A DNA stretch of 39,574 bases from a virus: positions 1 to 39,574 of the IMG/VR virus record IMGVR_UViG_3300025449_000025; one strand, written 5' to 3'. The translations under genes and the position numbers were made by a program. The notes under the pieces are model-generated. The model was not told the origin of the DNA and did not search any database. It saw nothing but the letters and a program-made list of their open reading frames with translations. This document shows, in pieces, positions 2,396 to 35,023 of the stretch; position 1 is the first letter of the stretch; each line of letters starts with the position of its first letter.

Positions 2396-2396
2396 T

Positions 2397-2972: not shown

Positions 2973-2986
2973 TAAAAGGAATTTAT

Positions 2987-3151: not shown

Positions 3152-3176
3152 TTTATTTTGTTGTTATAATACAACA

Positions 3177-3209: not shown

Positions 3210-3213
3210 ATGG

Positions 3214-3242: not shown

Positions 3243-3266
3243 TACACTTAATACAAAGGATAATAA

Positions 3267-3941: not shown

Positions 3942-3942
3942 G

Positions 3943-3971
3943 TTGACGTAAAAATCAATTAATTATATAAT
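3943..3971 (+). promoter_or_regulatory. Sigma70-type promoter for the moxR-like gene
   Basis: TTGACG (3943-3948), 17-bp spacer, TATAAT (3966-3971); close to consensus. An AAAGGAAA ribosome site and the ATG at 4016 follow after a leader of about 38 nt. Confidence 0.85.
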
Positions 3972-4015
3972 AGAGTTATAGTAAATTTTTAAACCGCAAC
4001 AAAGGAAACACAGCC

Positions 4016-5906: not shown

Positions 5907-6163
5907 GTTGTAATGCATATTACGCCAATACATTTGCTCGAATTGATACTATTATTGGGTATAGAGGTATTATATGGCAAAAAATTGCCGGTGCTAAAAA
6001 AGAATTTGATCAATTAGACTCATATAATAAAGATTTTTCTGAATGGATTAAAGATACATATGGTATCAATCTTAAATTTGATGATCATGGTATGGTAAGA
6101 CTTGATAGTTCCATAGTTGATGAACAAAAATATCTAATATTTTTACTAAAATATGGTAACTAA
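5903..6163 (+). CDS. Small paralogue-family protein 4
   Basis: 86 aa from the ATG at 5903, which overlaps the previous stop; an in-frame ATG at 5897 is the alternative. Features are FSEWIKDTYGINLKF in the middle, matching the Trp helix plus Gly turn, and a C-terminal DEQKYLIFLLKYGN tail in the place of the LRWS motif. Function unknown. It stops 2 nt before gene 5. Confidence 0.66.
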   Translation: MSCNAYYANTFARIDTIIGYRGIIWQKIAGAKKEFDQLDSYNKDFSEWIKDTYGINLKFDDHGMVRLDSSIVDEQKYLIFLLKYGN

Positions 6164-6165
6164 AA

Positions 6166-6471
6166 ATGAACGTTGAAATTAAATACAATTTGATAATTTT
6201 TAAAAAGCCAAGAGAGTGGCATGAAATAAAAAATCAAATTGAACAAGATTTTGGAAAAGGTATTTTTTTAATTTCTTGGCGTACCAAAAGAGATCTTGGA
6301 TTCACTGTTAGACATCATGTAGGACTACACCCTTTTGACGAAGATGAAAAAAATAAAGTATTATCTGGGCGTTTTTATTATCAAGAAGAAGTTCATTTAG
6401 ATTTTTATACTGAATCGGCTATATCTTGGTTTTGTTTAAAATATTTTAATAAAAATTATGAAGAAATTTAA
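6166..6471 (+). CDS. Small paralogue-family protein 5
   Basis: 101 aa. Starts MNVEIKYNLIIFKKPREWHE. A Trp helix EWHEIKNQIEQDFGKG lies near the N-terminus and the tail is FYTESAISWFCLKYFNK, the family's final-helix pattern. It has a longer central insert with two His (RHHVGLH). Function unknown. It overlaps the next gene by 14 nt. Confidence 0.66.
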   Translation: MNVEIKYNLIIFKKPREWHEIKNQIEQDFGKGIFLISWRTKRDLGFTVRHHVGLHPFDEDEKNKVLSGRFYYQEEVHLDFYTESAISWFCLKYFNKNYEEI

Positions 6472-6757
6472 AATTATCAAACTAGATCGCAGGTATAACG
6501 GATTTGGTATGTTTAAATATGCCGTAGAACCAACTAATTTTGCGAAATCATTAAGACTTCAATTATTTGAGGTCCGAAAATGGTGTTGGGAAACTTGGGG
6601 CGCTAGCGCCGAATTAGATTTTTTTGTTGGAGCAACTGGTTCCAAATTAGAACCTGATAATTATCTTTGGGCTTGGGACACAAATTTCAATAATCGAAGA
6701 ATTTATTTAAAATCTGACGCAGAATTGTTGTTTTTTCAGCTAAAATTCCAGAGTTGA
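6458..6757 (+). CDS. Small paralogue-family protein 6
   Basis: 99 aa. FEVRKWCWETWGASAELD is the closest match to gene 1 (KVRVWCSETYGHANLD), and the tail RIYLKSDAELLFFQLKFQS keeps the family pattern. Function unknown. Its last codons overlap the -35 box of the promoter for the VWA gene, closing the array. Confidence 0.7.
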   Translation: MKKFKIIKLDRRYNGFGMFKYAVEPTNFAKSLRLQLFEVRKWCWETWGASAELDFFVGATGSKLEPDNYLWAWDTNFNNRRIYLKSDAELLFFQLKFQS

Positions 6758-9478: not shown

Positions 9479-10137
9479 AAGTAGAATTAGTATCGTATTC
9501 AAAACCATCAGATGAACTATTTGATAAAGGTATTATTAATTTACAAGAATTAGTAGCGTATTGTGCTCGAGTATCTAATCCTGGTAACCAGTACAATACT
9601 GATACTTCAGACAAACTTATTCGTTATTTAATTAAAAATTCGCATTGGTCACCTATGGAAATGGCAAGTGTGTGTCTTTCCATAGAAACTACCCGAGATA
9701 TTGCTCGGCAAATATTGCGCCATCGTAGCTTTAGTTTTCAAGAATTCTCTCAGCGTTATGCTGTAGCAGACTTAGGGTGGGATTACAAAGAAGCTCGCTT
9801 ACAAGACACTAAGAATCGTCAAAACAGTTTGGAATCTGAAAATCCTGAACTAGATGCTTGGTGGGATAGTAAACAAAAATTTGTAACTACTGTAGTAGAG
9901 GATATCTACGCAGAAGCTATTGACCGTGGCATTGCTAAAGAGCAAGCTCGTGCTGTATTACCAGAAGGTATTACTACTAGCCGACTTTATATGAACGGTA
10001 CTTTACGTTCTTGGCTTCATTATATTGAATTACGTAGCGGTCCAGAAACTCAAAAAGAGCATAGAGAAGTTGCCGTTGCTTGCGCCAATTCTTTATCTTC
10101 TATATTTCCAATGGCATTAGAATTTATTGCAAAATAA
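9475..10137 (+). CDS. thyX: Flavin-dependent thymidylate synthase ThyX
   Basis: 220 aa. The ThyX signature RHRxxSxNExSxRY appears as RHRSFSFQEFSQRY (82-95), with Gln for the usual Asn at position 89, a variant I recall from phage ThyX proteins. The second conserved block, SRLYMNGTLRSWLHYIELRS with a following QKEHREVA, gives the substrate-binding Arg/His residues. The enzyme makes dTMP from dUMP using FAD, NADPH and methylene-tetrahydrofolate, supplying the phage's AT-rich DNA synthesis. The length is normal. The start overlaps the preceding stop (ATGA). Confidence 0.95.
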   Translation: MKVELVSYSKPSDELFDKGIINLQELVAYCARVSNPGNQYNTDTSDKLIRYLIKNSHWSPMEMASVCLSIETTRDIARQILRHRSFSFQEFSQRYAVADLGWDYKEARLQDTKNRQNSLESENPELDAWWDSKQKFVTTVVEDIYAEAIDRGIAKEQARAVLPEGITTSRLYMNGTLRSWLHYIELRSGPETQKEHREVAVACANSLSSIFPMALEFIAK

Positions 10138-10162: not shown

Positions 10163-10399
10163 ATGCAGACCATTAAATTTCATTCTTTTTTCATGGGAGA
10201 TGTAGAAGATCCCGAATTATATGCCTCTTTTCCACTAGGCGAATTTATGGATACTGAAAAGGGCCAATGGATTAAAAAAAATTGTCCAGATCCTAAATAT
10301 AGTGTTGGACCTGATATTAATAATTTTGGATTTCGTGTGGTCGTATATGGTATCGTCGAAGATCGATTTGCTATCGAGTATTATTTAAAATGGAATTAA
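10163..10399 (+). CDS. Small paralogue-family protein 7
   Basis: 78 aa. Ends VEDRFAIEYYLKWN, the C-terminal pattern of the six-gene array at 5162-6757, with GQWIKKNC in place of the Trp helix. Starts MQTIKFHSFFMGDVEDPELY. Function unknown. It lies apart from the array, behind its own promoter, and overlaps the following membrane-protein gene by 10 nt. Confidence 0.68.
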   Translation: MQTIKFHSFFMGDVEDPELYASFPLGEFMDTEKGQWIKKNCPDPKYSVGPDINNFGFRVVVYGIVEDRFAIEYYLKWN

Positions 10400-16871: not shown

Positions 16872-18329
16872 TCAGTTTCCCTGTAAAAATTGTGCCGCCG
16901 GAGTATTAGTTTCCTGTAAAGGAACCCCGTTACTAGCAGTACCAACACCTTGTTGATACCAAGTTACCCCGCGATTTATTAAAATTGTAACATCACTGCC
17001 GTTTGCCGGAGCTGTTGTAAATTCAATAATTACAGGATTTTCGCTAGTAAATGCATACCCACTTGTTTGTAAAGTACCACCAACATATACTTGTACTGCC
17101 GCATTTAATGGTTGCCAGTATAAAGTATTTGATATAGCTGTATTTGCCGGAACATCTTTTTTAGCATAATAATAACTGCCGCTCGCATCAACTGTTGTAG
17201 CCCCAGTATATGCGTTAGTTTCTACCCAAGCAATCGAAGCCGACCCACTTAAAGATATATCTACTGCTTCAAATATTGTAGTTGTTCCGTTAGCCAATGT
17301 AGTATTACTTACTACATAATTTTGGAACTGTCCCGGCAATAAATTTCCTCTACTTTCATCATATACCTCAGCTCCGGCTAAATGTGCGGCTGCTGCAGTA
17401 CCTGCGGTACCACGTAGTAAACTACTAATTGTATTATTTTCAAAATCTATGTTACGATACATAATACGTTCACCGTCAATAGTTACTACGCCCCAAATAT
17501 TAGCAAGAAAATTAGGTATTGTTAAAACTGAAGCGTCAACAACATAAATTATATCGTCTGACATTGCTACAGCCTGTTTTAAAGTAGTAGTACTTGCCGG
17601 GGTCATTCGATATGTTGCTTGTATGCCTCTCATATCTTGAAATAATCTAAATTCTAAAGCTTCGGGAACTACAGCGTTTGTAGTCTCAGTGACTATGACA
17701 ACATCCGTTGGTTGTAAAGTACCATATGATAAAATAATAGCATTGTTTTCTAATCTAAAATCTATATCAGGATTTAATACTTTTCCGTTTAATGTTACCC
17801 ACAATCTACTTGCATCAATAATTGTTTCTTGTAATACTAAATTGTTTACAGATATACTAGAACCTGTAGTATAATCATACGATCCTGATGCATTTGTAGT
17901 AGTGCCTTGATCAAATTCTGTTGTGTCAAATCCTTCTGAAACTGTTATACCTTCAATAACCGGACCAACAAAAACTTGAGTTAACAATCTTTGTTCTCTA
18001 GTATCATTCCAAGTGGTTACTGTTATATTTTGTCCATTTCTAGGAATTAATCCGCCAGTGCTATTAAAAGTTAATGTTTTTGCTATTGGATCAATAGTAG
18101 CTTGCGCTCCAGTACTAACTGATATATAAATTCTTACGCCTACCGCAGGTGCGGTATTAAACGTGACGGTAGTCCCACCAGTCAAAGGAGATACTGTGTA
18201 TAATGATGTACTTTGTAAAATATCATTAAAGTACACATTTACGTCAGAAGACTGTATGAAACCTTGATCTATACCTAATCGTTGTGCTACAGTAAAAACA
18301 GTTGTAGCGTTATCACCAACATAAACTAT
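16872..18329 (-). CDS. C-terminal part of the giant tail protein, separated by one in-frame TGA
   Basis: 485 codons open in the same frame as the giant gene, immediately after its TGA. The only early start codon is a GTG at 18236 without a ribosome site, and it falls inside a domain: VYVGDNATTVFTVAQRLG before it and VYFNDILQSTSLYTV across it form one copy of the VNG-type beta module repeated in the giant protein. Further modules follow (LWVTLNGKVLNPDIDFRLEN, VQVYVGGTLQTSGYAF) and a GVVTIDGERIMYRNIDFENN...LLRGTAG segment that I recall as the C-terminal part of large tail proteins in related phages. It is best read as a piece of the upstream protein made by read-through, or cut off by a nonsense change. 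Confidence 0.72.
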   Translation of the reverse strand: MVYVGDNATTVFTVAQRLGIDQGFIQSSDVNVYFNDILQSTSLYTVSPLTGGTTVTFNTAPAVGVRIYISVSTGAQATIDPIAKTLTFNSTGGLIPRNGQNITVTTWNDTREQRLLTQVFVGPVIEGITVSEGFDTTEFDQGTTTNASGSYDYTTGSSISVNNLVLQETIIDASRLWVTLNGKVLNPDIDFRLENNAIILSYGTLQPTDVVIVTETTNAVVPEALEFRLFQDMRGIQATYRMTPASTTTLKQAVAMSDDIIYVVDASVLTIPNFLANIWGVVTIDGERIMYRNIDFENNTISSLLRGTAGTAAAAHLAGAEVYDESRGNLLPGQFQNYVVSNTTLANGTTTIFEAVDISLSGSASIAWVETNAYTGATTVDASGSYYYAKKDVPANTAISNTLYWQPLNAAVQVYVGGTLQTSGYAFTSENPVIIEFTTAPANGSDVTILINRGVTWYQQGVGTASNGVPLQETNTPAAQFLQGN

Positions 18330-18332
18330 TCA
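18330..18332 (-). other. In-frame TGA between the two parts of the giant gene
   Basis: The codons before are ...GGA GTA CGT GCT AGA ACT GCA GCG, then TGA, then ATA GTT TAT GTT GGT GAT. Frame is kept exactly: 96 nt from the TGA to the GTG at 18236. TGA is used as a normal stop by several small genes in this window, so a general code change is unlikely. Read-through, or TGG-to-TGA mutation, are the candidate explanations. Confidence 0.85.
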
Positions 18333-21300
18333 CGCTGCAGTTCTAGCACGTACTCCGCCTACATTAACAATAGCATTAACTGAGTTTGTATACGATAAAT
18401 TATTAGATAAATTATAAGTTAAAGCACCCGATGCTGTAATAACTTGTGTTACGGGTGCGCTCCATGAATAGTTTGTAGTTACATTATTAATTGTGGTCGG
18501 AGAAATTGCTACTAAACTAATAAAATCAGCTATTGTATATGTAGAGTCAAATATGATTGTTGTGGTATTATAAATGGTCCCCGATGAATAAGAATATCCA
18601 GAATTAGCTAAGTAAACTCCATTTACAAATATAGCAAATTCTTGAATTAACGAGTACTCAACAGGAACTGTTAATGTTCTAACAACATCAGCACCATTAT
18701 ATACTCCTTTAAATATTTGATTTCCACCACCCAATTCATAAACATAGATTCCTAATTGATCATTGTTTGCTACACGCATTGATGATTTAGAAATTGTAAA
18801 TGTTTGTAATACCCAATTTACGATATAATCAACACCCAATACTAAATCATAACCTTGGGTTTCATCTGTAACTATTAATGCCACGGGGTAAGGGAAGGCA
18901 TTGGCAAAACTTATAGTAGGATGTGCTGAATTATACACTACCCGTGTTAATTTTTCAGGAAACCCATGCCCAAGTCCTTGCCAGTCTGCTCCAGGAGTTG
19001 TGTAAACTCTAAAATCCATAGTATCAAATTCTATTCCTGGTACCAATTCTTCAGGAGCATGACTTTCAAAAGTATCAACATATGCTCCACCAACTATGTT
19101 TATATCAGTAGCACGTGTTCCCAAATAAGGATCAAGATATTGACTTTCAAATATAGTATCTAATATACCTAAATCATAAGTTGGTTTACCACTAGCATCA
19201 AGAGAAAAATTATCAAATGTGTTTATGTCAAAATTTCCAATACTATATCCAGTATTTTGATTAAATGACGGTGCCATTACTTGCACGCCTGGATAATCTA
19301 TACCATCAATTAACAAAGGTAAAGATAAACCCGGAGTATTAGCCGTAGAAACATAATAACCCATAGTTCTATCTACACCACTCAATGTGGCAGCATCAAC
19401 TTTAGTCCACTGAGCTGGATCAAATATTGAGTTTGTTATCGTACTATTTGCTTGCCATACATTATTATTGTATCGAACTTGTGTACCAGTAGTGTAGGTT
19501 GTGTTAGATTGCCAATCTATAATAGTAGTTTGATATTGATATCTATCATACTTAATAATCGTTTTAAATGAGCGTACCAAGCCATTGCCCATATAAGCCA
19601 CAGCTACTGCTCCTGAACCATTACCACCACTTATTGTTATAATAGCAGATGTAGTATAACCAACCCCTGGATTTACAATATTAATTGCTGAAACTTGTCC
19701 AGTTCCGTTTATTACCGCAGTCATTACTGCTTGTGTCACACAATTACCGGTCACAGTTACTACTGGTGCTGATGTATATCCGGTACCGCCACTGGCCAAT
19801 ACTACACTTTCAATACTTAACAAATAATTATTGAACCATTGGCTATAGATACTAGGTTCTAACCAAATTTGTGCATTAGGGGCAGTATCACTAGCCGTAG
19901 AATACGATGGTGTTATAGCCATATCGTACGGGGTCAATATAGGACTTACAAATTGAGGAGCCGCTAATGTTGAATTCCAATAAGCAGGCAAATCATAATC
20001 AGTTACATCGCCTTTAAAATCATCTTCACCAGAATAAATTAAGTTAAATTGCCTTAACTGTACATGATATGGTTTAACTTCTTGAAAATAATCTAACACA
20101 AAGTTTTGATTATCTTCAAGATAAGTTTGATATGGTAATAAAGAACGAATATTATGATTGACGTCAACATAACTAGTTTTTACAAGCCAAGTAGGGTTAG
20201 TAAATTCGCTGTAAACATAATTAAACATTAAAATTAAACTGCTATTACGTTCAATGGCTAAATCATCAATATAGATTTCTTCGTTTAATGCTTGAATAAT
20301 ATAACGTGTTTCAACTTGCGGAGTTTCATCAAAATATTGTGCGTCAAACACTTCACCGTCAAATCCAAAATTACCTGCGGCATAATTCCATAACTTTTCA
20401 GAAAATTGTATTGTTCCATCTTCTAATCCTACACGAGTCCATCCGGTAGCAGGATCTAATCCAGTACGTAAATAAATTTCCCAGCGTCCAGCGCCGTTAT
20501 TAACTACACGTACACTAGAACCCAGCGGGGCTAATGTATAACTTAAAGTTGCCAATTGTCCGTAATTTTGTACGGCAGCAACTGTAATTACACTAGAGTT
20601 ATACCCTGGCTGATACCAATTTATATAGTACCAGTATAACGGTGTTTCATAACTTTGTACTTGTATTAAACTTAATGTTCTATTAGATTGTAGTTGATAA
20701 ATTGTCCAACGCCCATTTTGACTACTATCACTGAGAACCAAATACCGGTATCCTATCGGAACAGCGAAAAGATTTTGATAGCCTAAAATTTCTAAGTTTG
20801 GAACTTCAAAATCCCAGGCGCCTGAATTGGCAGCGGGAGTTGGTTGTGAAGCATTTAATAAGTTAAAACTTTTTGTCTCTCTAATTGGATACTGGGCCAA
20901 AATAGTATTTGCTCTGCCTAGATAGTTTTGAAGTGCTGAAAATCTATCAGCAAACATACTTTGACGAGGTCTAAATTGTACACCAAATCTCATACCAGGA
21001 CTTAAGGTTGGATCAGGCACAGCATTACCTGCTGTGTCAACCCCACACAAACTATCTTGAAACTTACGATATAATTGAGTATTTAAAAATGAGTTAGCAA
21101 TTCCATCAGTAATAAGTTGATATTCTTGATGTACAACATCGTCATTTAATTGTTGATCAAAACCTATACTTAAAATAGTATTTGTACTATTAAGTAAATT
21201 TTGAGCATTGTAAATAGCAATAGTCGAAGCATTTAATCCTGCTATATAAGGCAGACCGCTACCTCTTGGATCTGCAATATAGCTAGCCACTCCGCTGGCA

Positions 21301-24300
21301 CTTAATGTTTTACCAGATCCGCTGGCTATTGTAGTAATACCTTTAACCCAGAAATAATATAAAGTTTGGAAAATATTATTTTGTCCTAGTTGTGAAGAAA
21401 TAGTATAACTTATCGGACTTAACGGTGTCCCAGGTCCTGTGTAGCTAGTTGGCGGGGTAGAGCTTTCGACCCATTGATAAACATCTACACTACTGCCAGG
21501 AAATACAGATCCCCAACGTCGGCTTGCGTAAACAATATCATCTTGATTAGGATCAATAAATCTTACAGTATTAGTGTCCCACCACATTTCACCAATATGC
21601 TCTGATTGCCAAGCATTTCCGTTATTGTGAACTGACCCAGTATTGTACTGAGCAGGATCTACCGCTCCTATATAATTAATATTTTGACGAGCGACACCGA
21701 GTATTTTTCCTTGTAATGGATCAAAAAAGTCAAAATATGTTTGAACTCCTCCATTAACAGTAACATTAATACCTACAGATTGTGCCCCGTTATATGTAAA
21801 TACTCCATCAAGTTTATAAACATCTACAACTGGCTGCTGAACACGTATTGGTGCCCAAGAAGGCGTATCACCTGGATTATTAAACACAGTTACATAACCA
21901 AAATTAGTAGTATTAGTTGGAATTCCGCCTGGCGACCCAATTAGCAATCTTCCGCTTGTATAATTAACACTAAAGGCAAACATATCACCAGATATTGTGT
22001 TACTATTATAAATTTGTTGTCCGAAAGCAAATTGCCCAGGATTATTAACATTACTTGGACTAGACGGGAAAAAATCATATGTATACGCTACACCGCCGTT
22101 GAGTATACTATTATAGTAAGTTGTACTATGTTCGTCAAAATAAGTTTCCCCAGCGTCAAATGTAGTTGGTTCATATATATTACCGTTTGGCGCTCCAACT
22201 ATCAAATTAACTGCGCTAGTATCAATACTTAACGAAGAACCAAATTGAGCATACACGCTAGGAGCGGGACTTAGAATTTGTTGAGTGAGTACAAAAGTAT
22301 TAAAACCTAATTGATTAAATACAGAATTAGTAACTCCTGGCAGAACTGTTATCATATTTCCAGGTGTTGCGGCTTTTGCATTTTGAACGCTAATTGTTAA
22401 TCTTCCAGAAACTACAATTATTTTATAGTTATTAGTCGGAGCATATACAAAATATATTTGTTCTGAACTAGGATCGTACGAATAATCTACTCCGCTAACT
22501 TGTAATACATTATTAACATATACTTTAGTGGTATAAGAACTAGCACTTGAATATAGTGTACCTATGTAAAATATTTTAGTAGTACCATCTCCTGTGAAAG
22601 TTAAATCAGCCGTTGGTGTAGCTATTACGTTAGGTATTAGCGCATTGTTAATTGCTAACGCAAATCCTGAAATTGTATTATTTGGTGAATTAGGTACTGT
22701 TACTATTGTGTCATTAATTCTAATTGTTCCACCGGCAGTAAGCGTTGGATTAGCAATAGTAGATGTAGTTACACCATATACTCTAGATTGATTAACTTGA
22801 TGATCAACAGATCCAGCTTGAGCCAAATATGTACTGTCAAAAGGAGCACCTATGTAAATGCTACAATTCAATGGGCAAACATCAACAGCAGTTCCATACA
22901 TAGCTTCATAACTTGGTGTACTAGATATTAATTGTTCTATTTGTTGAAATTGGTTTGTTTCAATTTCAATAATATCACCGCTATTAAATGTAATATTTGT
23001 AAATGTTATATTACTTCCCAAAACGGTATACTGTCCATTTATAGATTGTGCGGTAGATAATAAAAATATATTGTTTACTAATACTGCCACAGGATTGGAA
23101 ATAGTACCCGGTATTGTATAAACTAATTGTGTTGTATTTGAAACTATATATCTTATGACACTGCGGTCAAATACATAAGTTGTACCAGCTTGTGTTAACG
23201 AATTGACTTCGGCATTTGGTGCTCCCACTACAAGTTGTCTGCCATCTGTGGTAGTGCCAACACTAGCTCCAAAATTATCTCCGGAAATTGATTGTGCCGA
23301 AGTTATACTAGAAATATATTGCCAATACGTGTTAGATGTTACCTCAATTGTTGCCCCGGCACTAGGATTTGCTCCGGGATTAAAAGTTAAAGCAGTAGAT
23401 CCTGTGCTAAAAGTGTAATCAAGATAAGGACGTAGTATTTGCCCATTAACAACTACAGAAAAACTATAAATGTTTGTAGCTGTATATAAAAAATTATTTA
23501 AATTAAATGAAGATGTGTTATTGATTCCAGATCCACTGCTTGTAAATGATGTAATTTGACCAGTGTTAGATACTGAAGTAACAGTAATTACTAAATTATT
23601 AGCAGGACTTGATCCACCTATTACATTTCCATTAATAGTTAATGTATTACCTATTGAATAAGAAATACCTCCAGAAGTTAGTGTAGCAAAATATACTCCT
23701 CGAGTATTATTAACTGTAAACGTTGCGCCTACACCAACCCCACTAGTTGAATTTTGTTGTAATCCAAAATAAATTTGTTGATCTAATTGTACCTGTTGTC
23801 TTTGACTAATTCGAATTTGCTGATTAACAGTCGGCGGTGTCCCAAAAATTACATTATTTTGACTGATAGTATAATCAACCCCATAAGTAGCAATAAAACT
23901 TCCCAACGTAACTACTAGTTGGTTAGGATGAATGTAGTTAATTTGTATGTTATCAGAATAAGAAAATTGTCGCGTTATTCCGTCAGCTATGTATGTAACA
24001 AACTGAGGTAAAACATCAATACGCTCATAAGCATACACAGTATTAATCACCGGAGCACTAATATACATCCAGTGTTCATCATTGCTTATTATTCCTGAAG
24101 TACCAAAATTTATAGCAGAAAAGTTTTGATCAGGTGGTACTAATATTTGTGTTTCAGTGTATAAACTAGTTGCTGAATCTCTATAAATTGTAAATGCGTA
24201 TCCAACACCAGATAAACTTGCGCTTGCTCCGACTACTGCCCAATTTTTGTTACCAAAATTTACAAAATTACCGTATCCGTGTGTAGCTTGTGCGTTAGGA

Positions 24301-27300
24301 CTAAATGCTGTACTGTAGACATAATCAGTTTTAGTGCCAGCAAAGTAAGCATAAACTCCGCCTACTCCAGCGGATAATCCTGGAATACCAACCAACGCTC
24401 CTAAATTATCCACTGTTTGAGTAATACTTGTGCCGTATTGAGCTTGAGCAGTTAACCCCGGAGTAATAACTGAATTTGTCACAAAAGGAGTTTGTTTTTG
24501 TAATGTTTCCCAATGCCCGTTTCCATCATTATCAACCCAAACAATATCTCCAGGTATTAAATTATTAACATAAGATAATCTAGAAATATCACTTGCCTGG
24601 CTTACACGTGCTTCAGCTAATTTAAACACAAGTCCTAATCCTGGCAAAGAAGTTAAATTACTATTTGTAAAGGCAAAAGAAAGTAAAATACTGGTAGTAC
24701 TCGGTACTGCTATCACTCGGTAAACGCCATTTACTCCTGGATTAAAATATTTTACAATAATTAAATCAGCTACTGCTAAATTATGTATATTATTAAATTG
24801 AGCAATACTTGTGCCATTTAAATTATTTGTTAAAAGAGTCATTTGCGCTGGAACTTCAGCTACACGATAAACTCCCCAGTTATAACTATTAATTTTGGCT
24901 ATCCAAATATATGTTCCGATACCAATGTTATCAATATCAACATCAATAGCAGTCGGATCTTCAATGCTAAAGACTGTAACATTAACATCATTTAAACAAA
25001 CATACCCTGCCGTTGGTAACGAAGGAGCTAGACTGCTAGTTTCATATGTAGTTGGTAAAATATTAGGAGAAGTAATATTATAACTTTCTCTCCATAAATT
25101 GCTCAAGTATACAACTTGATTTGCTTGACTTGTTTGTCCAGGTACAATTACTTGTATTGTCGAAGGATTATAATTTAATAGTGCTTGATTTAATTGAATT
25201 TCAACATAGCTTTTATTAGCTTGTGCTCCGTAAGTCCCGGATAATATTCCCCAATTTTCATAAACATTATATTGCCCAGATTCTTTACCCAAATTAGCAT
25301 TGCTAAAAATTTGTGCCGCACGAGTTGTCCCTTTAGTTCCGATAAATTGTTGATATAACTGTACTTGAGTCACGCCGTTAAGATTCATATCCGTCATGTA
25401 TTGTCTAGGACGGAAACCAATCAAACCAAATGCAAATAAATCATTATCACTTGTTAAATTTGCTTGATATACATCATAAGCACTTACTAACTGATCAGCT
25501 TTGTTAGCTAAATTTGGCAATAGCCCCTGATCTATTAGTTGATAATCACTTTTAACCCAATCATTATAATTAAATTTTTCTTGAGGTTCACTTATGTCGA
25601 TTGCTTGCCAATAAGTGTTTTTATACAAAACTATTATACCTTTAGTATATTTTGTATATGGTTGCCACTGCTTAATGTTATTTAAATTTAATATAAATCC
25701 TTGGGCGTTAAGTTGACCGTCCCATTGTGTTGTAGTTGATGCAATTAAACTTAGTCTTACTTGTCTTGCTGCCGTAATTGGATCATAAATTAAATCATTA
25801 AACTGACTTGTGTTATTTAAAACTACCATGTCTTCGTAATTGGTAAAGCGCAAGGTCAAATAATTAATTGTTTGGCCGTTTGTTGTAGTCACAGAAAAAT
25901 TATTGCCATCTCGATAAACAACCATAGTGCGAACATCTAACACTTTATGATTTTGATCCAATAACATATTTTCCGGAGTAATGCTGGCAATAGTATCAAC
26001 TATGCTAATTGGCTGACTTGCTGTGATTTTTGTCGCACAAGGATTTAGATTAATCATTGTGTTAGCTGACCAACCTTGTTCTGCAAAATACAAAAATTCT
26101 TGAGCCATTTGTGCCCAATTGAGAGTGTAACCGTTTTCTACATTATCAAAAGTTAAACCTTGATTTTCTAACCAGGCGCCGTAACTTAATAAAAAGTCAC
26201 ATACACTAGTAGTATTAGTAAAGGTATACCCGTACGGGATTTGTGTAGTCCTTGTAGTATGTTGAGTTGGTACATTTACTGTTAAGTTTCCTGCCGTGAT
26301 AGTTTGATAAACCCCCGAAGGATTGCTTACCAATGTTTCAAAATAAGGTTGTACATTACTGTATCCAAATACAGAATATCCTACACTGCCATTGGATAAA
26401 ACTGTTACAGTAACTATTACTGAACTATAGGTAATTTCATTAAAAGGCTGATTTTTATAAAATAACAAATCATAACTTGTAGGAGGTATCAACAAACTAT
26501 TATTAGTAGAGTTTGGCCCTGCTCGTTCGGTAAACAACTGTAGATATACTGGATCAGAAAAAGAAGCCATTCTATAACATAAACGTACATCAAGATTAGC
26601 TAAATCTTCTGTTAATGTTGTAGTGCTGTTTACACCTAACTGACTATAATAATCAACAATCCAGTTTATGTAACTCGCTTTACTTACACCATTACCATAA
26701 ACTTGAACCCCGCTGGCATTTAATCTATAACGACCATTATAAAGATATTGCCCTAAGATTGTATTATATCGATATAAATCTCTATCAGCAAATAATGAGA
26801 AAAATTGAGCCGGTTTAGTAAGAGCCAATAAACGCATTATAGCAAATGGATATGATGAAGAATTCCACCATGATGCTTGCACTGGACCTCCGTCACCAGC
26901 TACCCAAGATTTTTGAAAAGATAAAGGATCATTAAAACCTACCAATGATTCAAGTGGCGGCAATAATTCTCCTTCGGTTCCAACTGGTATAATTCCACTC
27001 AAACCTGGTCGAGCATATTCAGGTAAAATGTATGGTGCCACTGGATCAGCTACGAGGCCGGCTTCCATGTCATCCCATAATACTGTATTACCTGAAGTAT
27101 AAGGTGCCGGTCCGTATCTGCCTGTCCACCAAGAAGGTTCTTCCGAAAACCCTATCATTTCCCAAGGGGTTGACTGAGGAGTTTCAGTGTCGTAAAAATA
27201 ACGATATAAGCCTCTCCAATTTCCTTGATATAATTGCTTGCCGTTAATACGATTTGCCGACTGACTATAATTATATGTAAAAGGATTACTCTCGACATAA

Positions 27301-30300
27301 TTTTGTTGTGTATAATCTATTTTATTTTGTCCTACCCAAGATAAAAAATCTTCGCTGAGAATTTGATTTATTTCAGCGTAGGTGTAAGGTGTATTACGAA
27401 AAAAGCCAGGTAGTAAAGCAGTTGTTTGTGCTGGATAAAAATTAGGATCAATTTCATCTGTAGTTAACGGAATAGGATTATCATCAACTTTAATATTATC
27501 ATAAATTCGTTTTTCAAATTCCAGTAGTACCTGATCTCTAATATCGCCAAAAGCAATAGTAATACTACCATCATGACCTTGAATTACTGTAGTTGGCTCT
27601 GAATATGTATTATCAACATAAATTTCAGGTGTGTATTTAGGGTAAAGGCCCATTTTACTCGGAGTGTTTGGACACCAACTGGCTATAGTTGTAGGATATT
27701 CATTAATAGTAACGACATCACCGACTTTTAACGGGATTAAAATTGTTAATTTAGGTGCTTCGGTAGATACAATATATTGTGATCCACGTAATATTAATAT
27801 TCCATTAACATATACTAACAATCCAAGATAATTACTCGAGGTAAAATTATAAGTTTGTATTGTATTAAAAGTTGATGTAGTTATAGGATTAACTACTGTT
27901 GTGTTGGAAGTATAATTTGTCCCAACTGGCAGCATATCACTCCAGTAAAATGGATTAGAACTAGTAAGACTTTGTGTGATATTTTGTATCGCCGCATCAA
28001 GTATACTACTTACAGATTGATTTACACTTATGTTTAATTGTGTTACTGCGGTAAGTAATTTATTTTTATACTTAATATATTCTCTACTATTATAAGCGAT
28101 AGATGAAAATATATCATAATTTGTAGAACGTAAAAAATATCCTGCAAGAGTTAACGGTGATGATTGCTGTAATATTTGTTGTCCATAAGGAACAATATTA
28201 CCTAAATCACGTGTATTATTTGGACCGTTAATTGTTCCTTGAAATTCTAATAAATTTTCGCAAATTGTAGCATAGTGTTGACGAATCGTCCCTAAGGTAA
28301 ATTGACTGCTGTTACCATTGAAAGGATTATTTTCCAAATTAATAGGAACTTGATAAAATCCTATATTACTTACTTGCGAACTATACACTAGTACTTCAAT
28401 GATATCGCCTGTATTATATCCACTGCCAGTTAAAGTAATTACAGTTGTATTTGTATTAGTATTCACTGATAAAGTATACGATGAAGGCAACTGATACACA
28501 TTATTAATAAAAATTTGTACGGCAGGAACATCTAAATTTGTTTCTGCCAATACATCAAGTTGCAAAGGAATTCCCGCATAACTAAACTGAAATTGTTGTC
28601 TCGGTAATGATGGTATTGCCGCTGTTTGCCATCCCAATTCTGTATTGTATAATAGTCTCGAAGAATACTGACGTACAAACCCATCACTAACCTTAACTGT
28701 AATTCCAGCATTCGTAGGAGTATAAACAAAAGTATCTGTATATAAATTATTATCAAATAGTATATCACCAATATTATTAAGACTAAAAAATGCTAACGGA
28801 ATTCCCAACACGGGATCCACCGCATTATCAATATTTTCAGAATAACTTAATAATTTACATCCAGTAAAATTAGTGCTAGGATAATATGTTGTGTCCCCAA
28901 AACTATTACCGTTTGTGTCAAAAACATCAAAAAGAGGCGGTTGATTTACTGAAGTTTTTTGTTGTGATGATACCCAATAAGATCCGTCAAAGTAAAAACT
29001 TTGTCCTTTTTGTGTCAATCCGTCTAAACATACTGTAACTTGATTTTTTTGAATAGGGCTATAATCGGTAGATACCAACTGAACCAAATCAATAACTGGG
29101 TTTGGATTTGAAGGGCTAGGTGAAATAAACGTGACAATGTATACTTGATTTCGAACATTTACGTCTGAATCTGCCGCAAATATTATTAAATCGCCTTGTT
29201 GTAATTCGTAACCATCTATACCATATCCTGTTTGTCCGTTAACATTTAACAAAGCATCTGTTTGTGAAAAATCAATAACATTTACTGGTGGTATGCCTTC
29301 GGTACCGTAATTAATTAATTTAGTGCCTGCTCTAAATTCAAGAATAGGTCGATTTGCTCTTTGTAAATTGGTATACGTAGGAGTTGTGTTATTATACGCC
29401 GATGTAGCAGAAATTACATCTGTATGAAACCATCGATTACTTCTGGACCAGGGATTTAAATCAATGCTGGCTTGATTAATTGTTATATAATCAGGTTTAA
29501 TTGGTTGATTTCCGTAAGATGTTACTACACCTCCACTTATATAAGTTCCAGAAGTTGTACTATAAAAAATTACTTCTGTTGTAGTCGAAGAAATAACATT
29601 AAAAATACCGTTATAGTTCCCAGCTGATGAAGAAACCCCAGATACTACAATTAATTGTCCGGCAACAAAAGGAGCTACTGACTGTGCTGCAAAAGTTAAA
29701 GTTACTTGTGATCCGTTACCACTTATTCCGGTTACAGGAATATTGTTTATTCCAACCGCATACGATTCAGGAACAATAAAATTAGTTACAGGCAATAAAA
29801 CTATGCTAGATCCAACCCCTTGAATGTAATAAGAATTTCCCTGGTACGAAGAGGGAGTTACACTACCCTGAAAAATAACTTTAAGTCCATTGGTGAAAGT
29901 AACACCATTTGGACTAGTGTAATTAACTTTGCCTATAATATCAGTGTCTACATTTATTGTGGCATTACTAACAGGATCAATTAAATTAATTGTTCCAAAT
30001 ATAGTTGGATCTTCACTATCTTGATAAAACAAATAATTTTGTGCAGCAGTTAGTAAGGGTATTTGCTGGAAAAATCCTTGAGAATTTTTATACCATTGAG
30101 TGTTAATATATTGTGTTCCAAAACTAATACTAAATTGTGTAAGATTGTCAACAGATTGAATAGATGTCAATTGAATAAATTGTGCTCCGCTAGAATCTGT
30201 GACATAATTTGCTCTCCATATACTAAATTGAATAGTAGGATCTGTTATTGGAATAGCTTGATCAAAACCTGTGCTATCATAACTACCAGTACTACCATTT

Positions 30301-31592
30301 ACTGGCACATTTGGTGAGTACGGTGATTGATTATACCATCCGCCTGGATCAACGTCCGAAGTTTGAGTAACAAAAACTATAGTTCTATTATTTAAATTAG
30401 TAATACCGTCAATACCAGTAGGATAATTATCTAAAAATTGTTGTGGAGTGACTCCATTAATTTTATCAAATTGATAATTTGATCCTGCTATTAAATCTAC
30501 TTTTCCTATATTTGGCAATGTATAATAAAAATTTTGTGCAGTACTTAACGGAACGTTGAAAGTTACTGTGCCTAAATCTATTCCGTTATTACTAACTCCC
30601 AACACATTTCTGCTTGATATATTACGAGACCAAGATACTTCGCCGTTAACTCCTGGCTGGCTTTGAATCCAAAAGTTGGGACCTGATCCTGGTATAGCAT
30701 CAATAACATTTAATTGACCACGAAGATTAAATTCCAAATCATTACAATAATATAAAACATCAGGAGCATCTTGCGGCACTGTAAAAGTTACTAGCCCGGC
30801 AGTGGCCCCATTATTTGTCACTCCTTCACTCCATATATTTGTAGTACCAAAAGATAATTCTGTTTTGATATAAAATGCTAACGGAATCGTTTGTACTAAA
30901 TTCCATGTATATGTGTTACCTCGAACTAATGTTAATGTAGGATTTGGCTGCTGATCAATTGCCCAAGAACTTGTTCCGTTATTTGTAACTCTGTAATCAA
31001 TAGCATTACTTGTATTTTGTGCTATATTAAATTGATAAACACCGTTACGTACAAGGGTAAGTGCTGGATTAGTACCTTTATATCCGCTAAAAGTATAAGC
31101 GCCATTCGCTCGTGTAACTGTAAAAGTTTGAGTTGTGGGAACCGTAGTTGCCGATACGGTAACAGCTTCAGGTCCATTTGGCAGCCAATAATATTGAGCA
31201 TAGTTATTAAATTTGTCAAAATCAACAAATGGATCCCAAGAATAATATTCACTTTCAAATAATCTATCAGCTTGATCTGTTATACCGCCTTGTACTGTTA
31301 ACGCATCAATTATGCCTGGGTAAGTAATAACATCGTCAATATTTAAAGTAGTTGGGTTAAGAGAAACTACACCAGGCTCAAGTTGATAATTATTACGACT
31401 AGGTGTAGGTTCAATAACGTAATTGTCATTCGGATTAACGCCTGGGCCAACTTTTTGCCCTATAAAACCCTGTGTCTGTTTATACTGTGGTTCTTGTACT
31501 AGCTGATCAAGAGTTGCTGATAAAAATTGTTTGTTAACCGGAGTTTGAAATATTTCCGGCAAAAAATTAACGGTACGAATTTGAGCTGCCAT
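18330..31592 (-). CDS. Giant tail/baseplate-associated structural protein (4420 aa)
   Basis: 4420 aa, the largest gene here. The N-terminus (IRTVNFLPEIFQTPVNKQF, then KVGPGVNPNDNYVIEPT, then ESEYYSWDPF) is the conserved start of large structural proteins that follow gp6 in environmental T4-like phages. The bulk is a mosaic: about ten beta modules of type VxVNGxxL...DYT...I-x-F...GD-I-x-I; two modules resembling carbohydrate-binding CBM5/12 (WQPYTKYTKGIIVLYKNTYW at 25543-25680 and WQSNTTYTTGTQVRYNNNVW at 19393-19524); seven FG-GAP-like repeats (21880-24445); and tandem GGTGYTSAPVVTVTG-type repeats near 19600-19800. It is probably a long fibre or baseplate-peripheral adhesin. Its ATG overlaps the gp6 stop by one base. 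The frame ends at a suspicious TGA. Confidence 0.85.
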   Translation of the reverse strand: MAAQIRTVNFLPEIFQTPVNKQFLSATLDQLVQEPQYKQTQGFIGQKVGPGVNPNDNYVIEPTPSRNNYQLEPGVVSLNPTTLNIDDVITYPGIIDALTVQGGITDQADRLFESEYYSWDPFVDFDKFNNYAQYYWLPNGPEAVTVSATTVPTTQTFTVTRANGAYTFSGYKGTNPALTLVRNGVYQFNIAQNTSNAIDYRVTNNGTSSWAIDQQPNPTLTLVRGNTYTWNLVQTIPLAFYIKTELSFGTTNIWSEGVTNNGATAGLVTFTVPQDAPDVLYYCNDLEFNLRGQLNVIDAIPGSGPNFWIQSQPGVNGEVSWSRNISSRNVLGVSNNGIDLGTVTFNVPLSTAQNFYYTLPNIGKVDLIAGSNYQFDKINGVTPQQFLDNYPTGIDGITNLNNRTIVFVTQTSDVDPGGWYNQSPYSPNVPVNGSTGSYDSTGFDQAIPITDPTIQFSIWRANYVTDSSGAQFIQLTSIQSVDNLTQFSISFGTQYINTQWYKNSQGFFQQIPLLTAAQNYLFYQDSEDPTIFGTINLIDPVSNATINVDTDIIGKVNYTSPNGVTFTNGLKVIFQGSVTPSSYQGNSYYIQGVGSSIVLLPVTNFIVPESYAVGINNIPVTGISGNGSQVTLTFAAQSVAPFVAGQLIVVSGVSSSAGNYNGIFNVISSTTTEVIFYSTTSGTYISGGVVTSYGNQPIKPDYITINQASIDLNPWSRSNRWFHTDVISATSAYNNTTPTYTNLQRANRPILEFRAGTKLINYGTEGIPPVNVIDFSQTDALLNVNGQTGYGIDGYELQQGDLIIFAADSDVNVRNQVYIVTFISPSPSNPNPVIDLVQLVSTDYSPIQKNQVTVCLDGLTQKGQSFYFDGSYWVSSQQKTSVNQPPLFDVFDTNGNSFGDTTYYPSTNFTGCKLLSYSENIDNAVDPVLGIPLAFFSLNNIGDILFDNNLYTDTFVYTPTNAGITVKVSDGFVRQYSSRLLYNTELGWQTAAIPSLPRQQFQFSYAGIPLQLDVLAETNLDVPAVQIFINNVYQLPSSYTLSVNTNTNTTVITLTGSGYNTGDIIEVLVYSSQVSNIGFYQVPINLENNPFNGNSSQFTLGTIRQHYATICENLLEFQGTINGPNNTRDLGNIVPYGQQILQQSSPLTLAGYFLRSTNYDIFSSIAYNSREYIKYKNKLLTAVTQLNISVNQSVSSILDAAIQNITQSLTSSNPFYWSDMLPVGTNYTSNTTVVNPITTSTFNTIQTYNFTSSNYLGLLVYVNGILILRGSQYIVSTEAPKLTILIPLKVGDVVTINEYPTTIASWCPNTPSKMGLYPKYTPEIYVDNTYSEPTTVIQGHDGSITIAFGDIRDQVLLEFEKRIYDNIKVDDNPIPLTTDEIDPNFYPAQTTALLPGFFRNTPYTYAEINQILSEDFLSWVGQNKIDYTQQNYVESNPFTYNYSQSANRINGKQLYQGNWRGLYRYFYDTETPQSTPWEMIGFSEEPSWWTGRYGPAPYTSGNTVLWDDMEAGLVADPVAPYILPEYARPGLSGIIPVGTEGELLPPLESLVGFNDPLSFQKSWVAGDGGPVQASWWNSSSYPFAIMRLLALTKPAQFFSLFADRDLYRYNTILGQYLYNGRYRLNASGVQVYGNGVSKASYINWIVDYYSQLGVNSTTTLTEDLANLDVRLCYRMASFSDPVYLQLFTERAGPNSTNNSLLIPPTSYDLLFYKNQPFNEITYSSVIVTVTVLSNGSVGYSVFGYSNVQPYFETLVSNPSGVYQTITAGNLTVNVPTQHTTRTTQIPYGYTFTNTTSVCDFLLSYGAWLENQGLTFDNVENGYTLNWAQMAQEFLYFAEQGWSANTMINLNPCATKITASQPISIVDTIASITPENMLLDQNHKVLDVRTMVVYRDGNNFSVTTTNGQTINYLTLRFTNYEDMVVLNNTSQFNDLIYDPITAARQVRLSLIASTTTQWDGQLNAQGFILNLNNIKQWQPYTKYTKGIIVLYKNTYWQAIDISEPQEKFNYNDWVKSDYQLIDQGLLPNLANKADQLVSAYDVYQANLTSDNDLFAFGLIGFRPRQYMTDMNLNGVTQVQLYQQFIGTKGTTRAAQIFSNANLGKESGQYNVYENWGILSGTYGAQANKSYVEIQLNQALLNYNPSTIQVIVPGQTSQANQVVYLSNLWRESYNITSPNILPTTYETSSLAPSLPTAGYVCLNDVNVTVFSIEDPTAIDVDIDNIGIGTYIWIAKINSYNWGVYRVAEVPAQMTLLTNNLNGTSIAQFNNIHNLAVADLIIVKYFNPGVNGVYRVIAVPSTTSILLSFAFTNSNLTSLPGLGLVFKLAEARVSQASDISRLSYVNNLIPGDIVWVDNDGNGHWETLQKQTPFVTNSVITPGLTAQAQYGTSITQTVDNLGALVGIPGLSAGVGGVYAYFAGTKTDYVYSTAFSPNAQATHGYGNFVNFGNKNWAVVGASASLSGVGYAFTIYRDSATSLYTETQILVPPDQNFSAINFGTSGIISNDEHWMYISAPVINTVYAYERIDVLPQFVTYIADGITRQFSYSDNIQINYIHPNQLVVTLGSFIATYGVDYTISQNNVIFGTPPTVNQQIRISQRQQVQLDQQIYFGLQQNSTSGVGVGATFTVNNTRGVYFATLTSGGISYSIGNTLTINGNVIGGSSPANNLVITVTSVSNTGQITSFTSSGSGINNTSSFNLNNFLYTATNIYSFSVVVNGQILRPYLDYTFSTGSTALTFNPGANPSAGATIEVTSNTYWQYISSITSAQSISGDNFGASVGTTTDGRQLVVGAPNAEVNSLTQAGTTYVFDRSVIRYIVSNTTQLVYTIPGTISNPVAVLVNNIFLLSTAQSINGQYTVLGSNITFTNITFNSGDIIEIETNQFQQIEQLISSTPSYEAMYGTAVDVCPLNCSIYIGAPFDSTYLAQAGSVDHQVNQSRVYGVTTSTIANPTLTAGGTIRINDTIVTVPNSPNNTISGFALAINNALIPNVIATPTADLTFTGDGTTKIFYIGTLYSSASSYTTKVYVNNVLQVSGVDYSYDPSSEQIYFVYAPTNNYKIIVVSGRLTISVQNAKAATPGNMITVLPGVTNSVFNQLGFNTFVLTQQILSPAPSVYAQFGSSLSIDTSAVNLIVGAPNGNIYEPTTFDAGETYFDEHSTTYYNSILNGGVAYTYDFFPSSPSNVNNPGQFAFGQQIYNSNTISGDMFAFSVNYTSGRLLIGSPGGIPTNTTNFGYVTVFNNPGDTPSWAPIRVQQPVVDVYKLDGVFTYNGAQSVGINVTVNGGVQTYFDFFDPLQGKILGVARQNINYIGAVDPAQYNTGSVHNNGNAWQSEHIGEMWWDTNTVRFIDPNQDDIVYASRRWGSVFPGSSVDVYQWVESSTPPTSYTGPGTPLSPISYTISSQLGQNNIFQTLYYFWVKGITTIASGSGKTLSASGVASYIADPRGSGLPYIAGLNASTIAIYNAQNLLNSTNTILSIGFDQQLNDDVVHQEYQLITDGIANSFLNTQLYRKFQDSLCGVDTAGNAVPDPTLSPGMRFGVQFRPRQSMFADRFSALQNYLGRANTILAQYPIRETKSFNLLNASQPTPAANSGAWDFEVPNLEILGYQNLFAVPIGYRYLVLSDSSQNGRWTIYQLQSNRTLSLIQVQSYETPLYWYYINWYQPGYNSSVITVAAVQNYGQLATLSYTLAPLGSSVRVVNNGAGRWEIYLRTGLDPATGWTRVGLEDGTIQFSEKLWNYAAGNFGFDGEVFDAQYFDETPQVETRYIIQALNEEIYIDDLAIERNSSLILMFNYVYSEFTNPTWLVKTSYVDVNHNIRSLLPYQTYLEDNQNFVLDYFQEVKPYHVQLRQFNLIYSGEDDFKGDVTDYDLPAYWNSTLAAPQFVSPILTPYDMAITPSYSTASDTAPNAQIWLEPSIYSQWFNNYLLSIESVVLASGGTGYTSAPVVTVTGNCVTQAVMTAVINGTGQVSAINIVNPGVGYTTSAIITISGGNGSGAVAVAYMGNGLVRSFKTIIKYDRYQYQTTIIDWQSNTTYTTGTQVRYNNNVWQANSTITNSIFDPAQWTKVDAATLSGVDRTMGYYVSTANTPGLSLPLLIDGIDYPGVQVMAPSFNQNTGYSIGNFDINTFDNFSLDASGKPTYDLGILDTIFESQYLDPYLGTRATDINIVGGAYVDTFESHAPEELVPGIEFDTMDFRVYTTPGADWQGLGHGFPEKLTRVVYNSAHPTISFANAFPYPVALIVTDETQGYDLVLGVDYIVNWVLQTFTISKSSMRVANNDQLGIYVYELGGGNQIFKGVYNGADVVRTLTVPVEYSLIQEFAIFVNGVYLANSGYSYSSGTIYNTTTIIFDSTYTIADFISLVAISPTTINNVTTNYSWSAPVTQVITASGALTYNLSNNLSYTNSVNAIVNVGGVRARTAA
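21880..24445 (-). repeat. Seven FG-GAP-like repeats in the giant protein
   Basis: In protein order the cores are LGALVGIPGLSAGVGGVYAY, NWAVVGASASLSGVGYAF, HWMYISAPVINTVYAYER, RQLVVGAPNAEVNSLTQAG, CSIYIGAPFDSTYLAQAG, VNLIVGAPNGNIYE and GRLLIGSPGGIPTNTTNFG. Most are preceded by a YG/FG-x-S-type strand. The pattern matches integrin-alpha/FG-GAP beta-propeller blades, and seven is the number needed to close a propeller. Beta modules are inserted between blades 3-4, 4-5 and 5-6. Boundaries are by eye. Confidence 0.7.
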
Positions 31593-34500
31593 TAGATTAC
31601 TCCGCTGCCTGGGGCAGTTTGTAGGTTGTTACTAGTCAACGAATTAATAATTTCTATGTCATTTATTGTTGCGCCATTTACAAAAATTTGATATGGAGCA
31701 CATTGAATTTCATATAGATCACCAAAAGATTTCTGAGGGTTAAGTGGAACTAAAACTACTGAGGCTATATATGTTCCTATTTGAGAATGAATATATGCTG
31801 ACAACTCTGAAAAATAAAATGTATCTCCAAAATTCCAATTAGCTATATTAAAATAAGCATTTAATGTACCTAATACAAGATTTTGTATTTGATTATTACT
31901 AGCATTAGTATTTGCAGCAGGTATAACTTTAATTGTAGCTCTCAATGCTTCCGGTGCTTTACTTCCGAATAAAGGTAAAAACTGAACGCTATTAAGAATC
32001 ATATTATCACTAATCATTTTGTAATTTTGTAATCCGGCATAAGCTGTTGTCAAATCATCAATAGTTGGAGGTGTTGGTTCAGACACTGTACCTGTTGTAT
32101 CTTGAATCCAACGTTGGTAAGCAGTATAATATTCCAAAGTAACTACATACAAATCAATAATATTTGTACTACCAGGATCAATTAAATTATTCAAAGAACT
32201 ATTATGTCTATATTGAAAATATAAATCTTGTCTTCCAACTTGTGCTATCCAGCCAGAGGTTACTGATAAAACTCTAGTTCCGATCAATGTTAACGATAAT
32301 GTGTAAAAAACAGATTCTTGATAAGCATAAAATATTTGTCCAGTAACATAAGATTCTTTTACTAATTCAATTGCCGATAGTGTTGGATAATCACTATTTA
32401 CAACTCCTGACGGTTGTAATAAGTAACGTTCTAAATTATCAAAATCAACAGTCTGTTGGAAAAATACATATGGTTGATTTTGTGCTGTACTAGCAGGAGA
32501 CACTCCAACTATTTCGGTAAAAAAATCTGGATCATTTGGTATACCATCATTGTTATAGTCTTGATATCCAACTAATACTTGATAGTCATCAACTAACCCA
32601 TCAGTCAAAACCGGTTGACCAATAATTTTAAGTTGTGTATCATCTAATAATGGTAAGTTAGTAAAAGGTTGACTATTTGTTTTTAATATTTTTATAAAGT
32701 CACTAATTACTGATCCAGTACGACTATCATAAATTTTTTGATCAGTGTCAAAAAAGAAACGCACTTCTATTACACTGCCAAAATAATAATCAAGACTTCT
32801 AGTAACAACTGTATATTTTGATCCATCAAATGTACATTGTATTAGCCAACTAGCATCTAAATTAGATCCAGATGTATTGCCAGCATATCCTTGACTCCAT
32901 GTAGCTCCGACGTTAAGATTGGCAGCTGTAATAACATACCAAGAGTATGGGGTTCCAGTAATATTTCCGGTGCTGTCATAACCTAATCCAAAATTAAAAT
33001 TTATTAATATTTGATTAACTATCGATTGTTTGACTGTATTACTAAATGTAGATACAAATAAAGGAATAACTGTGACAGCAATTGCGCCAGTAGGAACATA
33101 TGTATTCAATACAACTGGGCCGGTGCCGTCAGTTAAATTACCAATGCCGTTATTGGTTCCGTTACCAATAATAGCCATAGGACTAGCCCAAATCACTAAA
33201 TGATCAGAAGATCCAGTTGGAGTTCCTGGCTGGAGTTCATTATTAATATCAAAATAATAACCTGTTGGCGGAATAAATTTAATTAATGAACCTTCAACAA
33301 TAAATTTAGCATTATTACTGGCAGTTGATCCAATAACAACTGGCGAACCTGTACTATTTGTAAAATATCCTGTAGTTTCATTGACAATAGTTGTGCTTTC
33401 GTGCCATGAATAGTTTAATGCTGTTAAGTCTGGTCTTGGAAAATTAGCGTAATAGAATTGTTTCAATGTAGCTTGTATCAATATAGGAGTCAAGTCATTT
33501 AAAATAACATTATTGATATCATTAGTAGTTTGCCAAGTAAAGGTAAAAGCCGGGGTCGTGTTTGTATACCACAAGGCACCATCATCACCAAATACGTTTG
33601 TAGAAGAATATTTTCCTGTCGGATCAACTAAATCAAGATAACGACTAGTTCCTATAGAACTACGGTTCAAAGCAGAGCTTTTAATAATAGAATTGTATGT
33701 TGTAAACGGAAAATTAGTATAATCTTCTCCATTTACCATACGATTTTGTGTGTAATAACGAGCTGGGGCACGTTCTTTTATCTGATCAATTGTTTCTCTC
33801 GGGGCGGCATTTGTTACTGGAGTAGTTAGCCCGCATGTAAATGTTATTGTTTCAATAGTACCAGTACGACTAACGTAAGATATAGGAATTTGTACTGATT
33901 GCATAGATTCAGGATTAATAATATATTGCAATCCGTTAGAAGCACGTACATAAGTTCTAAATTGTCCGACTGGTATTGATGAAAATACATTATCGCCAAA
34001 TACCAATGTAATTTGATCGTTTGTTCGACTTGCTACAGAAAATACAGTTCGTATATTAGGCGTCATTTGCTCAACTGCGGCAGCATAAACCGAAGGCACT
34101 GCCTGCCAGTAAGTTTGTACATTTCCTAAATTATCAAGTTGATACAACCATACATCAGTATTGTTAATGCCTTCAATATTAATATCAACTGTACGATTAG
34201 CAATACTTTCAACTAGATTAAAATCTTGATTTTGTAATACACCTTGCTTAAAATAGAAAAAATATCCAGTATTAGCACTAGCGTATCCTAGTTGATCATT
34301 TCTAAATAAAATATTAAATTGTCCATTTGGGCGTGGGGGAGGTTCAAAAATATAAGTTTCCCCTAAGGATGTAGCATTTACTACTTCAAATGGCATGTTA
34401 ACTCCGTCTATTGTCGAAGTATACGGCACCACTGGAATATACCCAGGAACTAAATTAATAGTATACTCTTGTGTGTCAATTCCGCCAATAATTTGATCAT

Positions 34501-35023
34501 TACCTGGATTTCCAACACGCTGTGTGTCAACTAAACTAGCATTAATTATAGCAGTAAATTGCTCTTGCCAATCAAAATTACTGGGATCTGCCCAATTAAC
34601 AGTTACATTAGCAAGATTAGTTCCATTATAATCTGTTACATTCTCTGTTGTAGACACAGAAAATACTTTAAGATATCCGTTTGCTTCAGTATTACGTTGT
34701 GCTGTATAGGAAACTAAATTTGCTAATTTAATAACGCTATCACGACGCTCGGCAGTATCAATGTAATTTTCTCGAGTATTTAAATCAGTTCTAAATGCTA
34801 ATGCTTGCCCCATGAAAGCAATAACATCAAGCAAAGCAATGAACTCTGATGATTCAATATAATCATTAAATGTTTCCGGATAGTATTGTTGTAAATAATC
34901 TACGAAACTTTTACGTAAAGTTTCAAAATCATAGCTTTGAAAGTCTCCTTCGCTATAAGTTTGATAGATTCTTTTCCAATCTTCAACTCCAAAAAGTACA
35001 GTTTGTCTTGTGGTTGTAGCCAT
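31592..35023 (-). CDS. gp6: gp6-like baseplate wedge protein
   Basis: 1143 aa. The N-terminus is the gp6 family start: WKRIYQTYSEGDFQSYDFET, then SFVDYLQQYYPETFNDYIES, EFIALLDVIAFMGQALAFR and TRENYIDTAERRDSVIKLA. gp6 forms the dimeric wedge ring that holds the contractile-tail baseplate together and changes shape on infection. It is much longer than T4 gp6 (about 660 aa), with extra beta-rich segments in the middle, as is usual in environmental relatives. A late promoter lies 19 nt upstream of the start. The stop overlaps the start of the giant gene (TAATG). Confidence 0.9.
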   Translation of the reverse strand: MATTTRQTVLFGVEDWKRIYQTYSEGDFQSYDFETLRKSFVDYLQQYYPETFNDYIESSEFIALLDVIAFMGQALAFRTDLNTRENYIDTAERRDSVIKLANLVSYTAQRNTEANGYLKVFSVSTTENVTDYNGTNLANVTVNWADPSNFDWQEQFTAIINASLVDTQRVGNPGNDQIIGGIDTQEYTINLVPGYIPVVPYTSTIDGVNMPFEVVNATSLGETYIFEPPPRPNGQFNILFRNDQLGYASANTGYFFYFKQGVLQNQDFNLVESIANRTVDINIEGINNTDVWLYQLDNLGNVQTYWQAVPSVYAAAVEQMTPNIRTVFSVASRTNDQITLVFGDNVFSSIPVGQFRTYVRASNGLQYIINPESMQSVQIPISYVSRTGTIETITFTCGLTTPVTNAAPRETIDQIKERAPARYYTQNRMVNGEDYTNFPFTTYNSIIKSSALNRSSIGTSRYLDLVDPTGKYSSTNVFGDDGALWYTNTTPAFTFTWQTTNDINNVILNDLTPILIQATLKQFYYANFPRPDLTALNYSWHESTTIVNETTGYFTNSTGSPVVIGSTASNNAKFIVEGSLIKFIPPTGYYFDINNELQPGTPTGSSDHLVIWASPMAIIGNGTNNGIGNLTDGTGPVVLNTYVPTGAIAVTVIPLFVSTFSNTVKQSIVNQILINFNFGLGYDSTGNITGTPYSWYVITAANLNVGATWSQGYAGNTSGSNLDASWLIQCTFDGSKYTVVTRSLDYYFGSVIEVRFFFDTDQKIYDSRTGSVISDFIKILKTNSQPFTNLPLLDDTQLKIIGQPVLTDGLVDDYQVLVGYQDYNNDGIPNDPDFFTEIVGVSPASTAQNQPYVFFQQTVDFDNLERYLLQPSGVVNSDYPTLSAIELVKESYVTGQIFYAYQESVFYTLSLTLIGTRVLSVTSGWIAQVGRQDLYFQYRHNSSLNNLIDPGSTNIIDLYVVTLEYYTAYQRWIQDTTGTVSEPTPPTIDDLTTAYAGLQNYKMISDNMILNSVQFLPLFGSKAPEALRATIKVIPAANTNASNNQIQNLVLGTLNAYFNIANWNFGDTFYFSELSAYIHSQIGTYIASVVLVPLNPQKSFGDLYEIQCAPYQIFVNGATINDIEIINSLTSNNLQTAPGSGVI

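Follow-up and report, generated by a model that had tools for sequence, protein, structure and literature searches.

The giant gene and its neighborhood

The window, i.e., the whole stretch of 39,574 nucleotides of viral DNA analyzed here, contains a minus-strand frame that opens with an ATG at 31592 and runs through 4420 codons (18333..31592) to a TGA at 18330..18332, beyond which the same frame remains open for another 485 codons (16875..18329) and closes at a second TGA (16872..16874). These coordinates, first given in a sequence-only reading of the same DNA, hold, and so does the combined size of about 4906 residues proposed there, given that the frame comprises 4906 codons with the internal stop, codon 4421, included. 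The second TGA marks the native end of the gene and has a counterpart, also TGA, at the matching place in the nearest relative, locus L020.

The 4420-residue part matches phrog_10938 ("virion structural protein"; E 4.1e-269, with the best stretch at residues 1049-1970) and has intact relatives. Directly upstream, also on the minus strand, lies a gp6-like baseplate wedge gene (31592..35023; phrog_10646, E 8e-288; phrog_219, E 5e-20), and genes for a gp25-like wedge protein and a hub/lysozyme protein are located further upstream. By both sequence match and position after the wedge gene, the giant gene is assignable to the phrog_10938 family of virion structural proteins. A giant gene likewise directly follows the baseplate wedge gene in Pseudomonas phages MIJ3 and PA5oct and Agrobacterium phage Atu_ph07; its size as a single gene, 11.6 kb in MIJ3 and 13.4 kb in Atu_ph07, is similar to that in the window, and the central part of the window's protein shares 31-33% identity with the giant structural proteins of these phages. 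Given that the order of the giant gene and the wedge gene is the same as in MIJ3 and Atu_ph07, the window most likely belongs to the genome of a large T4-related myovirus. DNA and protein searches with the C-terminal part of the gene detected no match in isolate phages for the C-terminal 875 residues.

In sequence searches of the PDB, neither the giant protein or its conserved region nor the wedge protein returned a match. In an AlphaFold2 model of the corresponding region of L020 (mean pLDDT 83, pTM 0.59), the glycine found at the site of the internal TGA opens a strand located between two beta modules. Short segments of the model find matches among chains from the tail complexes of podoviruses (8es4, 8i4m, 7y22, and 9efk; 73-79 aligned columns, 2-4 Å). 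On the strength of the model, we read the giant protein as a probable modular tail protein, a reading that has no bearing on the stop.

The tail cluster also encodes, on the minus strand (11782-14613), a 943-residue protein with very glycine-rich stretches that matches phrog_2295, a family of unknown function. Elsewhere in the window, the plus strand carries small frames of 78-101 codons within 5162-6757 and 10163-10399 (at 5162, 5395, 5670, 5897, 6166, 6458, and 10163), several of which end in similar motifs (LRWS, LLRWS, LLKYG, YLKWN) and look like a tandem paralogue family. A minus-strand frame of 258 codons (833-1609) might, judging by eye, encode a homing endonuclease of the GIY-YIG type.

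One gene on both sides of the stop

The GC content by codon position in the 485 codons after the internal TGA (0.454/0.454/0.181) matches that in the 485 codons before it (0.439/0.439/0.173), so that the downstream piece appears coding-like. Moreover, the 485 residues that this piece encodes, which make up C-terminal modules of the protein, can be aligned in frame with the C-terminal end of the unbroken gene in relatives. On this sequence evidence, the in-frame continuation past the TGA is more than chance, and the alignment shows the pieces on either side to be parts of one gene, as had been supposed when the downstream part was first ascribed to the same protein.

The downstream codons are also under purifying selection. 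In comparison to four relatives, the 485 codons downstream of the TGA yield a dN of 0.25-0.36 and a dS of 1.4-3.3, the latter near or at saturation, compared to a dN of 0.22-0.28 for the 485 codons before it; the downstream part evolves only somewhat faster. Given this continued constraint, the stop, if real, would be recent.

The codon at the stop site in relatives

The relatives were drawn from 16 close IMG/VR loci and two wider surveys, which together provided an alignment of the site for 139 loci, including 101 distinct ones; residues were tallied from the orthologous module copy only, not from paralogous modules. The gene of the relatives crosses the site unbroken, with a sense codon in all 139 loci. 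Among the 101 distinct relatives, the residue is glycine in 92, serine in seven, and cysteine and aspartate in one each; neither tryptophan nor a stop was found in any of them or in the 139 aligned loci. Thus, the earlier suggestion of a nonsense change or an assembly error at a TGG codon is upheld as to the kind of event and fails as to the codon. Likewise, of the tryptophan or other sense codon sought in homologues across the junction, only the sense codon is there, and tryptophan at the site was rejected.

Three near relatives (L002, L003, and L005) have GCG GGA ATA where the window has GCG TGA ATA, a single G-to-T change on the coding strand. In L020 and L019, the nearest relatives in terms of overall identity, the site is occupied by GGC, a codon that would need two changes to become TGA, and this leaves the exact ancestral codon to inference. 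An exact search of viral contigs for the junction, with the changed position free to be any base, found no second copy. The TGA is private to one contig whose relatives are intact, the pattern expected of an error, and the uninterrupted passage of the relatives' gene through the site makes an error or a chance mutation likelier than a controlled switch.

Similar breaks elsewhere in the family

A survey of the giant gene in 175 loci (~0.7 million codons on coding strands, with some contigs counted twice) covered codons ~1100-4906 in most loci. Beyond the window, in-frame nonsense codons were detected in L043 (TGA; arginine in relatives), L053 and L061 (TAA; glutamate in relatives in both cases), and the gene of L016 contains a frameshift. 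Two near-identical contigs from different samples, L133 and L134, have missing sequence and frame breaks around 9500-9620, 13200, and 15300, in partly differing places; these breaks, situated at join points, look like misassembly. L061 differs from the intact L055, which comes from another sample, in one of 10,552 bases, and the difference is the in-frame TAA of L061 (7961-7963). Breaks that are limited to one contig with intact relatives, together with this pair, point to isolated events in single contigs.

Nonsense codons were observed at a rate of ~0.4 per 100,000 codons, which corresponds to false or harmful substitutions at roughly 3e-5 per base; at this rate, a gene of the length of the giant gene has about a 2% chance of containing a nonsense codon. 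The gp6-like gene, used as a control, was free of nonsense codons over 92,000 codons and had a single frame break, which is compatible with the rate in the giant gene; the other genes of the same loci yielded a few weak nonsense candidates. Three of the four nonsense changes (those in the window, L053, and L061) appear to be G-to-T changes, which account for 13% of nonsense opportunities (binomial 0.008). A known source of C-to-A/G-to-T sequencing errors is 8-oxoguanine (PMC5994075); with four cases, the excess is only suggestive as an error signature.

The TGA of L043 (10061-10063) lies five codons before the position that matches the window's TGA and is followed by 453 open codons; in L046, which is 90% identical to L043 at the nucleotide level, the giant gene is intact. 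Under uniform placement, a neighboring stop as close as this has a chance of ~0.9%. With the apparent misassemblies set aside, the breaks in L016, L043, L053, L061, and the window all fall within the last ~1140 codons, a hint that C-terminal truncation is perhaps tolerated.

Origin of the internal stop

Taken together, these observations leave us highly confident that the window's TGA, at codon 4421 of one giant gene, is a single-base nonsense call specific to this contig, due to either an error or a recent mutation. A consensus error of sequencing or assembly, which we rank somewhat above a genuine mutation, appears slightly better than an even bet; a genuine recent nonsense mutation in the sampled phage is our tentative second choice. 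In either case, a glycine codon, GGA in several near relatives, would have become TGA in one contig. If the TGA is an error, the real protein would have ~4906 residues; if it is a mutation, the phage would produce a form truncated by 485 residues at the C-terminus, perhaps along with a little full-length protein made through ordinary misreading of UGA. Both the direction of the change and the choice between error and recent mutation are what we infer, and three observations count against this explanation, namely the GGC codon of L020 and L019, the nearby TGA of L043, and the C-terminal location of all breaks.

The latter two observations would be accounted for by a real truncation, tolerated or selected, whereby the last ~450-485 residues are lost through nonsense mutation at a module boundary, e.g., in host-range adaptation, with no read-through needed. 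The TGA of L043 arose independently of the window's, all five broken genes are interrupted in the C-terminal quarter even though codons ~1100-4906 were surveyed in most loci, and the predicted location of the site at a strand start between two beta modules would suit such a boundary. However, the cases number only five and were spotted after the fact, L061 is a single base away from its intact twin, and the downstream parts remain open and constrained, so that we consider a real truncation improbable. Marginally less probable still is a more elaborate scheme in which the linker before the C-terminal beta module would be a recurrent truncation point, the window and L043, both with UGA followed by A, shedding or partly expressing the last ~450-485 residues through a combination of selected nonsense and leaky UGA.

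Programmed read-through, under which the TGA would be retained to let a fixed proportion of ribosomes continue and the protein would exist in a short and a long form, was among the possibilities raised in the sequence-only reading. The base following the internal TGA is A, 485 open codons follow, and in E. coli, tRNA-Trp tends to misread a UGA that precedes an A, according to Engelberg-Kulka (1981), as cited in PMC5289835. Nevertheless, a stop at the site is absent from all relatives, and the folding of the RNA downstream of the TGA does not surpass that of shuffled sequences (z = +1.2). Furthermore, the final codon of the giant gene is likewise a TGA followed by A, so that UGA-A must terminate. 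We therefore regard programmed read-through as very unlikely. Phase-like switching, raised along with it, fares no better: the change is a substitution and no repeat unit spans the TGA, for which reasons repeat-driven phase variation was rejected.

The prospects of an alternative code or a suppressor tRNA, with TGA standing for an amino acid in the phage or its host, are close to nil. NCBI code 25 reads TGA as glycine, the residue of the relatives, and the window has two tRNA genes, but these encode tRNA-Met and tRNA-Cys(GCA) only, according to a tRNA scan. No UGA-reading tRNA was detected in the window or in the scanned loci of relatives, all fragments of genomes in which such a tRNA could lie elsewhere, and the contigs of L043, L020, L046, L053, L055, L002, and L009, also fragments, contain no tRNA of any kind. 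Moreover, the giant gene contains one internal in-frame TGA in its 4906 codons, compared to 152 GGA and 72 TGG, and several other genes in the window terminate with TGA, in agreement with the earlier observation that TGA is a working stop here; these terminators already contradict an alternative code, and a code change was rejected.

The same negligible weight attaches to two separate genes, the second of which would start at GTG 18236 (codon 4453), with a 454-codon open frame, or at a later TTG (codons 4470, 4536, and 4597), the sole restart candidates within ~230 codons downstream of the TGA, among which there is no in-frame ATG. As noted from the outset, the GTG has no ribosome site, the 18 bases preceding it (cagtcttctgacgtaaat) lacking a Shine-Dalgarno sequence, and a start there would exclude the first part of a conserved module. 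A conserved start of a second gene after the stop, the outcome that had been named as contrary to a split giant gene, is not what relatives have: every intact one has a single uninterrupted gene across the site, and a split gene with restart was rejected.

Implications and comparison with known systems

The private nonsense call in the window is mainly a caution that very long genes in metagenomic viral contigs gather isolated false or fresh stops, which at the rate observed here would affect ~2% of genes as long as this one; most such cases are quickly settled once relatives are compared. The clustering with L043, if real, would indicate that loss of the distal part of a giant virion protein of jumbo phages is tolerated or selected.

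With respect to known systems, the window's gene differs from its counterparts in MIJ3, PA5oct, and Atu_ph07 in the presence of the internal TGA. The coat protein gene of Q-beta, one of the RNA coliphages, has a leaky UGA that is subject to read-through, both the stop and the extension being functional and kept by selection. The window shares with Q-beta an in-frame UGA followed by A and a long open extension but, unlike the selected stop of Q-beta, its stop is present in no relative. A second copy of the same phage was not found for the window, in contrast to L061 with its intact copy in L055. The window's TGA otherwise resembles the isolated nonsense bases and indels of metagenome-assembled phage contigs, exemplified by the L061/L055 pair: a single base is affected, in a single contig, and the relatives are intact.
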